Part shown: positions 14,404 through 32,745 of the stretch, piece by piece | How the letters are laid out: each line of letters opens with the position of its first letter | Numbering within the stretch: position 1 is the first letter of the stretch | From: Candidatus Krumholzibacteriia bacterium | GTDB taxonomy: Bacteria > Krumholzibacteriota > Krumholzibacteriia > LZORAL124-64-63 | DNA length: 40,862 nucleotides | Direction: 5' to 3' | Assembly (NCBI GenBank): GCA_023270185.1 | Contig: JAGLCY010000096.1 | Span: 1 to 40,862, forward strand | Program-made: the position numbers and the translations under genes | The notes under the pieces: model-generated | The model's database searches: none | What the model saw: only the letters and a program-made list of their open reading frames with translations | Told to the model about the DNA's origin: nothing

Positions 14404-14489
14404 CCTCGGTTAACAGACTTGCCCAAATCAGCCTCCAAATTGATCTCAAACTCTCAGAAACCGTGTGATATACTGTTTTCGGTTAACAG
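14404..14489 (-). repeat. Intergenic dispersed repeat copy (related to 19679-19764)
   Basis: Contains TCTCAGAAACCGTG...CTGTTTTCG and TTGATCTC shared with 19679-19764; ends GGTTAACAG. Confidence 0.6.
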
Positions 14490-16281: not shown

Positions 16282-16320
16282 TCTCAGATATTGTGTCCGT
16301 TCTTGTCTTGCGGTTAACAG
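16282..16320 (+). repeat. Short repeat TCTCAGA-TATTGTGTCCG-N12-GGTTAACAG
   Basis: Same register as 19050-19088 (TCTCAGA-ATTTGTGTCCG-N12-GGTTAACAG, up to one ambiguous junction base). Confidence 0.5.
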
Positions 16321-19049: not shown

Positions 19050-19088
19050 TCTCAGAATTTGTGTCCGCCGATCGGATCTGGTTAACAG
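19050..19088 (+). repeat. Short repeat TCTCAGAATTTGTGTCCG-N12-GGTTAACAG
   Basis: Same register as 16282-16320. Confidence 0.5.
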
Positions 19089-19109
19089 CGACGACGGCGC
19101 GTCCATGGA

Positions 19110-19251
19110 ATTCCCCCGACAGTCGGGGGAACCAAGGTTCGGCAAGCGAATTAATTGCCGAGCCAATTTGAAGCACAGCGGATCTGCCGGAAAAAGCTGG
19201 CGATCCTGAGTGCTTGGTTTAGTCGGCACGCCGACATTTGGAGAAAAGACC
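19110..19251 (+). promoter_or_regulatory. Structured 5' leader RNA copy A upstream of an RRM gene
   Basis: Aligns without net gaps to 32220-32361 (constant offset 13110). Four hairpins: 19113-19129, 19136-19164, 19186-19201, 19222-19235. Confidence 0.75.
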
Positions 19252-19572
19252 TTGAAGAAGATCTACGTGGGCAACCTGCCCTTCAGCGCGACCGAAGACG
19301 ATGTCAAAGAACTGTTCGGTCAGCACGGCACGGTTCACTCCGTGGCCCTGATCATGGACCGTGAGACCGGCCGCCCCCGCGGTTTCGGTTTCATCGAAGT
19401 CGATGACGAAGCCCTTTCCGCCATGATCCAGAACCTGGACGGCAAGGAAATGGACGGCCGCGCGCTTCGCGTGAACGAGGCCCAGGACAAACCCCGTGGT
19501 GGCGGCGGCGGCGGCGGCGGCGGCCGTGGTGGCTACGGCGGCGGTGGCGGCGGTGGCGGCGACCGTTGGTAG
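19252..19572 (+). CDS. Glycine-rich RRM-domain RNA-binding protein A (TTG start)
   Basis: 'MKKIYVGNLPF' (RNP2) and 'RGFGFIEV' (RNP1), with tail GGGGGGGGGRGGYGGGGGGGGDRW. The track start at GTG 19210 is not conserved: paralog B has an in-frame TAA at 32329-32331. Confidence 0.93.
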   Translation: MKKIYVGNLPFSATEDDVKELFGQHGTVHSVALIMDRETGRPRGFGFIEVDDEALSAMIQNLDGKEMDGRALRVNEAQDKPRGGGGGGGGGRGGYGGGGGGGGDRW

Positions 19573-19604
19573 GTTAGTCAGTCAGCCCATGGGTTGATGA
19601 TTGG

Positions 19605-19639
19605 AACCCCGCTACTCATTGAGTGGCGGGGTTTTTTTT
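19605..19639 (+). terminator. Rho-independent terminator of RRM gene A
   Basis: AACCCCGCTAC-TCATTGA-GTGGCGGGGTT followed by a T-run. Confidence 0.9.
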
Positions 19640-19678
19640 GGAATTTGAGATGGAATATATTTCGTCGGTTTTGAGTAA

Positions 19679-19764
19679 ACCTGGTGAGCCAATTCGCCCA
19701 AAATGATCTCTATGTTGATCTCGTTTTCTCAGAAACCGTGAAAGAAACTGTTTTCGTTCAACAA
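19679..19764 (-). repeat. Intergenic dispersed repeat copy (related to 14404-14489)
   Basis: TTGATCTC...TCTCAGAAACCGTG...CTGTTTTCG shared with 14404-14489 at matching spacing. Confidence 0.6.
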
Positions 19765-23605: not shown

Positions 23606-23677
23606 GGCTAAAAACTGCCAAAAAAGAGCCGAAAAACGGAAAATGAGCTAATGATTGGGCTACATGCGGAGGGACCT

Positions 23678-24724
23678 ATGAAATCTCTGACCCCCGAATT
23701 TTTGGACGCTCTCACTTTCAGCGATCGGCAGATGGCCTCATTGGCTCTGATCGGCACATTTCAAGGAAAGCAGGCACTTTACGGGGAGCAGCTTCCGGAT
23801 ATCCTCAAGGCCATGCGCAAGATTGCCCAAGTGGAATCGGCCGAGTCATCCAATAGGATTGAAGGTATTGAAGCTCCACGAAAGCGCATTCAGGGTATCG
23901 TTCTGGAGAGCACGAACCCGGAAAACAGGCCCGAGCAGGAAATTGCAGGGTACCGGGATGCTCTGGCTTTGGTCCACGAGTCGGCCAAGGAGATGGATTT
24001 CTCGATAGGTGTGATCCGACAACTGCATACAGTGATGTATCGTTATCTCCCCCAACCTGGAGGGTCCTGGAAACCAACGGACAATGAGATCATCGAACGC
24101 AATTCGGATGGTTCGCGGGTCGTTCGCTTCCGCCCGGTTTCAGCTGTGGGGACACCCCATGCGATGGAGGATCTGACACAGGGCTTCAAGCGGGCGTTCC
24201 ATTCCGAAGAGCGCCCCGGCCTCATCGTGGGGCCGTTGGCTGTTCTCGATTTCCTTTGTATCCATCCTTTTTCGGATGGGAATGGGCGGACCTCCCGGTT
24301 GCTGACTCTTCAGCTTCTCTACAAAATGGGGTTCGAAGTTGGGCGCTTCATCAGTCTCGAACGTGTCATTGAGGAGTCCAAGAAAACTTATTACGAGGCC
24401 TTGAGGGTCAGTTCAGAGGGGTGGCACGAAGGAACTCATGATCCTCATCCCTGGTTGAACTATTTCTGGGGAGTTCTCATTAGAGCCTACTCGGAATTTT
24501 CGGACCGGGTCGGGGCACTAAACCGTGGGGCGGGAGGAAAAGCAGCTCAAGTGCGCAAGGCCGTCAACCGTATGACCAGACCATTTTCCTTGTCGGATCT
24601 TCAGGCTGAATGCCCCGGTATCAGTCTGCCTACGATCAAGCGGGAGTTGGGTGCAATGAAGGAAGAGGGCTTGGTCATGCTCACAGGGCGGGGACGTGGA
24701 GCCAAGTGGAGCCGGTTGGACTAG
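23678..24724 (+). CDS. Fic family protein (class II-type N-terminal inhibitory motif, C-terminal winged-helix-like domain)
   Basis: 'HPFSDGNGRTSRLL' Fic motif, 'SSNRIEGIE' inhibitory motif, GGAGGG Shine-Dalgarno. The track ORF starts at 23651. Confidence 0.95.
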   Translation: MKSLTPEFLDALTFSDRQMASLALIGTFQGKQALYGEQLPDILKAMRKIAQVESAESSNRIEGIEAPRKRIQGIVLESTNPENRPEQEIAGYRDALALVHESAKEMDFSIGVIRQLHTVMYRYLPQPGGSWKPTDNEIIERNSDGSRVVRFRPVSAVGTPHAMEDLTQGFKRAFHSEERPGLIVGPLAVLDFLCIHPFSDGNGRTSRLLTLQLLYKMGFEVGRFISLERVIEESKKTYYEALRVSSEGWHEGTHDPHPWLNYFWGVLIRAYSEFSDRVGALNRGAGGKAAQVRKAVNRMTRPFSLSDLQAECPGISLPTIKRELGAMKEEGLVMLTGRGRGAKWSRLD

Positions 24725-31888: not shown

Positions 31889-32219
31889 CGCGGCCTCCTC
31901 ATTGAATCCGCCGAATTCCGGCGGATTTGGTACGGATTACAGGTTTTAGAAAAATCCAATCTCATATGTAACTCATAAGGCCGAACGTCACAAACCAAAT
32001 CGCTTCAATGGGGGTGCAACGGTAAGCTGTATTACGTCGGAGGCCGCGAAGGTCTGGGCGTGCTCGCGGTTCGTCCATGGCCCGGGGAGCCGGGTTCTCC
32101 GGCAACGACTGGACGGTCAAATCGGGTGAATTCATCTGGGCGGATGATCGGTGAGCCCGGGTAGGCTTTTCTCGCAATAACTTGTAAAAATGCCCGGATT
32201 GTATTAGTTTCCGGCCTGA

Positions 32220-32361
32220 ATTCTCCCGACAGTCGGGGGAGCTACGGTTCGGCGAGCGATTGAATTGCCGGGCCAATTTGGAGCGCAGGGGATTTGTCGG
32301 AAAAAGCCGGCGGTTCTGAGCGCTTGGTTAAGCCGGTAAGCCGGCACTTGGAGATAATGCT
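32220..32361 (+). promoter_or_regulatory. Structured 5' leader RNA copy B upstream of an RRM gene
   Basis: Hairpins 32223-32239, 32246-32274, 32296-32311 and 32332-32345 correspond position by position to copy A. Confidence 0.75.
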
Positions 32362-32685
<324 letters not shown>

Positions 32686-32717
32686 GTTAGTCAGTCAGCC
32701 CACGGGTTGATGATTGG

Positions 32718-32745
32718 AACCCCGCTACCGGGAGGTGGCGGGGTT
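32718..32745 (+). terminator. Terminator-like hairpin of RRM gene B (weaker U-tract)
   Basis: AACCCCGCTACC-GGGA-GGTGGCGGGGTT. Confidence 0.7.

Follow-up and report, generated by a model that had tools for sequence, protein, structure and literature searches.

A conserved structured leader RNA precedes the genes of one RRM-glycine-rich protein subfamily in Candidatus Krumholzibacteriota

The window analysed here, a stretch of 40,862 nucleotides on contig JAGLCY010000096.1 of a Candidatus Krumholzibacteriia bacterium, carries two genes that each encode a small protein with an RRM domain and a glycine-rich tail. Copy A (19252..19572; 106 amino acids; PF00076, E=1.5e-19) and copy B (32362..32685; 107 amino acids; PF00076, E=6.4e-20) both begin with TTG, and both are directly preceded by a leader, at 19110..19251 and 32220..32361 respectively, with leaders and genes alike lying on the forward strand. 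The start codon adjoins the leader end in each case (19252 and 32362) and a GGAG stands 8 nt upstream of the TTG in both. Direct alignment yields a gap-free repeat of 86% identity between 19108-19407 and 32218-32517 at a constant offset of 13110, while immediately 5' of 19108 the similarity is at background level. The gap-free pairing of the two leaders before TTG starts and the abrupt loss of likeness 5' of the first hairpin, both reported by a first-pass annotation of this DNA, are therefore confirmed. Coding-region tail and 3'UTR are also 87% alike between the copies (19498-19615 and 32611-32728). A probable intrinsic terminator, read from the sequence, follows copy A at 19600..19640, and the copy A transcript is probably single-gene with this terminator directly downstream; no strong sigma-70 promoter was found by consensus. 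The source genome holds four RRM genes, three with the leader (copies A and B and one on another contig, L001) and one without it (L002).

Two further features of the window are recorded here. A Fic/DOC-family gene lies between the two RRM genes at 23651-24721. An intergenic element of the form CTCAGA-N(3-5)-GTG-N(10-24)-GTTAACAG occurs at 14453-14489, 16283-16320 and 19051-19088, with a partial copy at 19727; these are its only three matches in the whole source genome, all within 4.7 kb, and in other genomes a sequence resembling it is seen roughly 170-230 nt ahead of the RRM start at several loci with the leader. It may be a promoter, a boxA-like site or a repeat.

The leader comprises four helices followed by the ribosome site. 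Hairpin H1 (19112..19130) pairs 19112-19119 with 19123-19130 around a CAG loop, and H2 (19136..19164) pairs 19136-19145 with 19155-19164, its loop differing in length among relatives. Folding of the copies together with covariation defines P3 (19171..19215), a stem of three stacked segments formed by 19171-19176/19210-19215, 19180-19184/19202-19206 with 19185 bulged, and 19186-19190/19197-19201. Finally H4 (19222..19235), pairing 19222-19226 with 19231-19235, ends 4 nt before the Shine-Dalgarno GGAG (19240..19243). Copy B has the same helices at +13110. Of the four hairpins quoted in the first-pass annotation, H1, H2 and H4 are present as described; its third was incomplete, being the tip of the longer stem P3. 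A further 5' hairpin upstream of H1 is weak (mean z -1.0 compared with -0.3 further upstream) and is not claimed. Both leaders fold better than their dinucleotide shuffles, with z -5.2 for copy A and z -2.3 for copy B. Between A and B alone, a single pair is truly compensatory and, judged from these two copies only, recent duplication would explain much of their similarity; the claim of a structured leader therefore becomes strong only with the approximately 100 homologues described below.

Homologues were sought with two covariance models, R1 covering the 3' half (P3, H4 and the ribosome site) and R2 the full leader, both of which have copy A among their top matches. Among 82 searched genomes of Candidatus Krumholzibacteriota, R1 gives about 105 convincing copies, with matches in 33 of the 39 genomes of the same family and in 46/82 of the phylum. 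Of 109 model matches, 103 stand directly before an RRM start, two lie at a contig edge and four are not before an RRM gene; the latter are weak (E>=1e-5), and the strong, readable leader copies all lie directly before an RRM start. The best of these four is an orphan P3 and H4 fragment (L270 1001-1065; G006:C199:53538-53602) with neither a ribosome site nor an RRM gene behind it, which looks like a fragment, either a decayed leader copy or a stand-alone RNA. At another locus (L160; G019:C657) an intact leader with the best R2 score of all precedes a protein that is missing the second RRM half and ends RETGRPRGGGGGRW.

Presence of the leader tracks one protein subfamily. By identity to the copy A protein, it precedes 34/37 genes at 80% or more, where two of the exceptions are at contig edges, 58/61 at 70-79%, 4/12 at 65-69% and 0/19 below 65%, so that at least 70% identity corresponds to 92/98; for one exception in the 65-69% bin (L273), the full model does detect a weak leader. 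Other types of RRM gene in these genomes, L002 of the source genome among them, are without the leader. The search of related genomes that the first-pass annotation suggested thus finds the leader before close RRM homologues in the phylum. Among genomes carrying the nearest public RRM relatives, which are labelled as many other phyla, it occurs in 1/45. This single match (L085; JAHOYV010000106.1) is titled Gemmatimonadales, and the record has the same two leader matches at the same coordinates as a phylum member (G020); it appears to be the same genome, the Gemmatimonadales label probably being wrong. The leader was not found in the 44 searched genomes from outside the phylum. Steroidobacter-type proteins reach 70% identity yet lack the leader, so its presence does not follow from protein conservation alone. 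From comparison across these genomes, the predicted RNA is always placed directly before one gene type, with H4 docked immediately upstream of the Shine-Dalgarno.

Covariation supports each helix. In a structure-free alignment of 15 leaders, 16 of 39 pairs are double-changed, where shuffles give 7.9, and pairing holds in 96% of cells but in no more than 50% once the partners are shifted along. With 100 leaders aligned on R2, 93% of pair cells pair and 38/39 pairs carry double changes; the double-changed cells number 432, compared with 95 after shuffling. As the R2 alignment leans toward the proposed structure, the 3' half was additionally aligned with MAFFT, blind to structure, as a check; the six top-scoring column pairs of that alignment are all proposed pairs, the highest of them in P3. 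Against a tree-based null that preserves the tree and the substitutions, implemented in a custom script modelled on R-scape rather than with R-scape itself, 25 of the 26 highest-ranking of 9045 column pairs belong to the proposed set and two pairs are significant against all pairs, while a two-set test of the proposed pairs only returns 23/39 as significant with H1, H2, P3 and H4 all represented. The covariation anticipated by the first-pass annotation is thus significant under this null. For H1, 8/8 pairs have double changes among the 100 leaders and 6/8 are significant in the two-set test; for H2 the values are 10/10 and 9/10. In H4, relatives swap between GC, AU, CG and UA with 99.6% of cells paired. 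Compensatory change across the aligned leaders shows that the four predicted helices H1, H2, P3 and H4 are maintained. Together with the RRM-only location and the tracking of one subfamily, covariation in every helix upholds the earlier proposal of a cis-acting structured leader of RRM genes.

The leader represents a new RNA family, of a kind already known, that is absent from Rfam. At gathering and at permissive thresholds (cmscan of the leaders, E<=10 and E<=5) Rfam gives nothing relevant, in line with the first-pass annotation, which recognised no named riboswitch. Outside the 224-motif collection published by Weinberg in 2017, a literature search found no paper naming the leader or RNA-binding proteins of the phylum. 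The nearest counterpart is Chlorobi-RRM (RF01697; Weinberg et al. 2010), listed as a likely RNA that is likely cis-regulatory and not a switch (PMC2864571). It too is a structured RNA with a proposed cis-regulatory role, and its name ties it to RRM genes; the leader shares its placement upstream of such genes (103/109 matches), but Chlorobi-RRM has a 73-position model and belongs to the phylum Chlorobi rather than Candidatus Krumholzibacteriota. RF01697 exceeds its gathering cut-off in 0/29 genomes of the phylum, its sole match (E=0.54) lying at an unrelated place and none at the leaders, and it is unlisted in the cmscan of the leaders at either permissive threshold. The 5'UTRs of cyanobacterial type I rbp genes contain conserved cold-response boxes (work of Maruyama 1999 and Hamano 2004, cited by PMC9333190), likewise a 5'UTR element tied to one RRM-Gly-rich protein class; that source describes them as sequence boxes, and R1 found nothing in two searched genomes with cyanobacterial species names (L097 and L136). 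Leaders of the cspA type also combine a long structured 5'UTR with a small RNA-binding protein gene, but the present leader has no Rfam match, its Shine-Dalgarno is not predicted to open in the cold, and the protein folds are unrelated. In the autogenous leaders of ribosomal-protein genes, a structured leader is confined to the gene of its ligand; the same restriction to the gene of the proposed ligand is seen here, that ligand being the RRM protein. A Bacteroides rbpB mRNA bears an RbpB binding site (PMC11697453). The highly conserved unpaired aptamer core expected of a metabolite riboswitch is missing. Unpaired leader positions are weakly conserved apart from A19191 and G19196 in the P3 loop and A19236, and few unpaired columns outside the Shine-Dalgarno exceed 1.2 bits. 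With so few strongly conserved unpaired positions, protein recognition or structural control fits better than a metabolite aptamer.

On balance we consider it probable that the leader belongs to a cis-regulatory family of one RRM-Gly-rich subfamily that acts in translational control and is bound by its own RRM product. Autogenous control is suggested by the exclusive linkage to one subfamily of RNA-binding proteins, including several copies per genome. The RRM protein would bind the leader of its own mRNA and, when in excess, would stabilise H4 and P3 beside the ribosome site and so keep 30S subunits from loading; the start codon of these mRNAs is often a weak TTG or GTG. Where structured RNA of the cell titrates the protein away, as might happen in the cold, translation would be released, and as several paralogues per genome share the same leader they may form one common feedback loop. 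The rbpB mRNA and Chlorobi-RRM serve as precedents, and a possible cold link of this scheme is suggested by the missing cold-shock-domain proteins of the host family and the cold requirement for Synechocystis Rbp1, both described below. The binding step, the sign and the trigger of this scheme are all inferred. H4, at its distance of 4 nt from the Shine-Dalgarno, falls inside the usual 30S footprint, and the conserved fold leaves the Shine-Dalgarno itself, which is 89-99% conserved and keeps the 8-nt spacing in 55/103 leaders, unpaired. Folding gives no indication that the Shine-Dalgarno is sequestered in a conserved way: its mean partner weight is 0.25 for the coding region and does not exceed 0.10 for any other stretch. 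Masking of the Shine-Dalgarno by the CUCC-like 5' arm of H1 was rejected, with CTCC present in only 41/102 leaders and the arm explained by H1. Start codons behind the leaders are TTG in 44, GTG in 34 and ATG in 25 cases (n=103), hence TTG or GTG in 78/103; against an argument from weak starts, non-ATG starts are also common in leaderless RRM genes (19/41). RRM domains bind mostly single strands, and this preference, together with the only modest conservation of the leader loops, counts against autoregulation. The exclusive linkage to one gene is also consistent with a leader that only sets mRNA stability.

Rather unlikely, though the strongest of the rivals, is a cspA-like leader that responds to temperature: its RNA would itself refold in the cold and raise translation or stability of the RRM mRNA, with RRM proteins replacing cold-shock proteins in the lineage. 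Cold-shock-domain (CSD) proteins are found in 0/24 genomes of the host family compared with 14/15 from other families of the class, a contrast that may reflect a single evolutionary event, and their absence from the host family makes a cold link plausible. The 5'UTR cold-response boxes of the cyanobacterial type I RRM-Gly-rich genes point the same way, and the Synechocystis RRM protein Rbp1 is required in the cold, at 15 C (PMC9333190). However, the predicted median accessibility of the Shine-Dalgarno is lower and not higher in the cold (0.34 at 5 C, 0.42 at 37 C), a weak reverse trend from folding alone, no conserved alternative fold was found in the leaders, and no Rfam thermosensor family exceeds threshold. 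An improbable reading is that the 5' hairpins only make the mRNA more stable or expose its ribosome site, and sense nothing. The very stable H1 near the likely 5' end, and a Shine-Dalgarno outside the conserved helices, would suit such a protective or standby structure, which would however require neither helix-by-helix conservation across the phylum nor restriction to one subfamily. Highly improbable is a site for another regulator, either an sRNA chaperone or CsrA bound to a GGA in a hairpin and a second GGA at the Shine-Dalgarno. CsrA is encoded in 30/39 genomes, including the source genome, and GGA does occur at the P3 end and within the Shine-Dalgarno; yet both G of the P3 GGA are paired, unlike in CsrA sites, no CsrA match was found in two leader-bearing genomes (G039, 96% complete, and G048, a single contig), and a general regulator should show its motif before other genes. 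That the likeness of A and B reflects recent gene duplication only, with no selected RNA structure, is suggested by a similarity that also takes in the coding sequence and some of the 3'UTR, and is contradicted to near certainty by compensatory changes in all helices of about 100 homologues.

Autoregulation by the RRM protein might extend further. It is possible, if doubtful, that the leader is a phylum-wide autoregulatory RNA through which an RRM-Gly-rich family that replaces the missing CSD proteins controls all its paralogues, the common leader sensing the load of unfolded or cold-stabilised RNA. The leader constitutes a well-supported RNA family from an uncultured phylum and offers a concrete candidate target, testable in vitro, for the RRM proteins of bacteria, about whose targets little is known. 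Alongside Chlorobi-RRM and the 5'UTR boxes of cyanobacteria, it raises the possibility that bacterial RRM genes are repeatedly preceded by structured self-leaders, and the loss of CSD proteins in the family rich in leaders allows a test of the long-standing idea that RRM and CSD proteins can substitute for one another.
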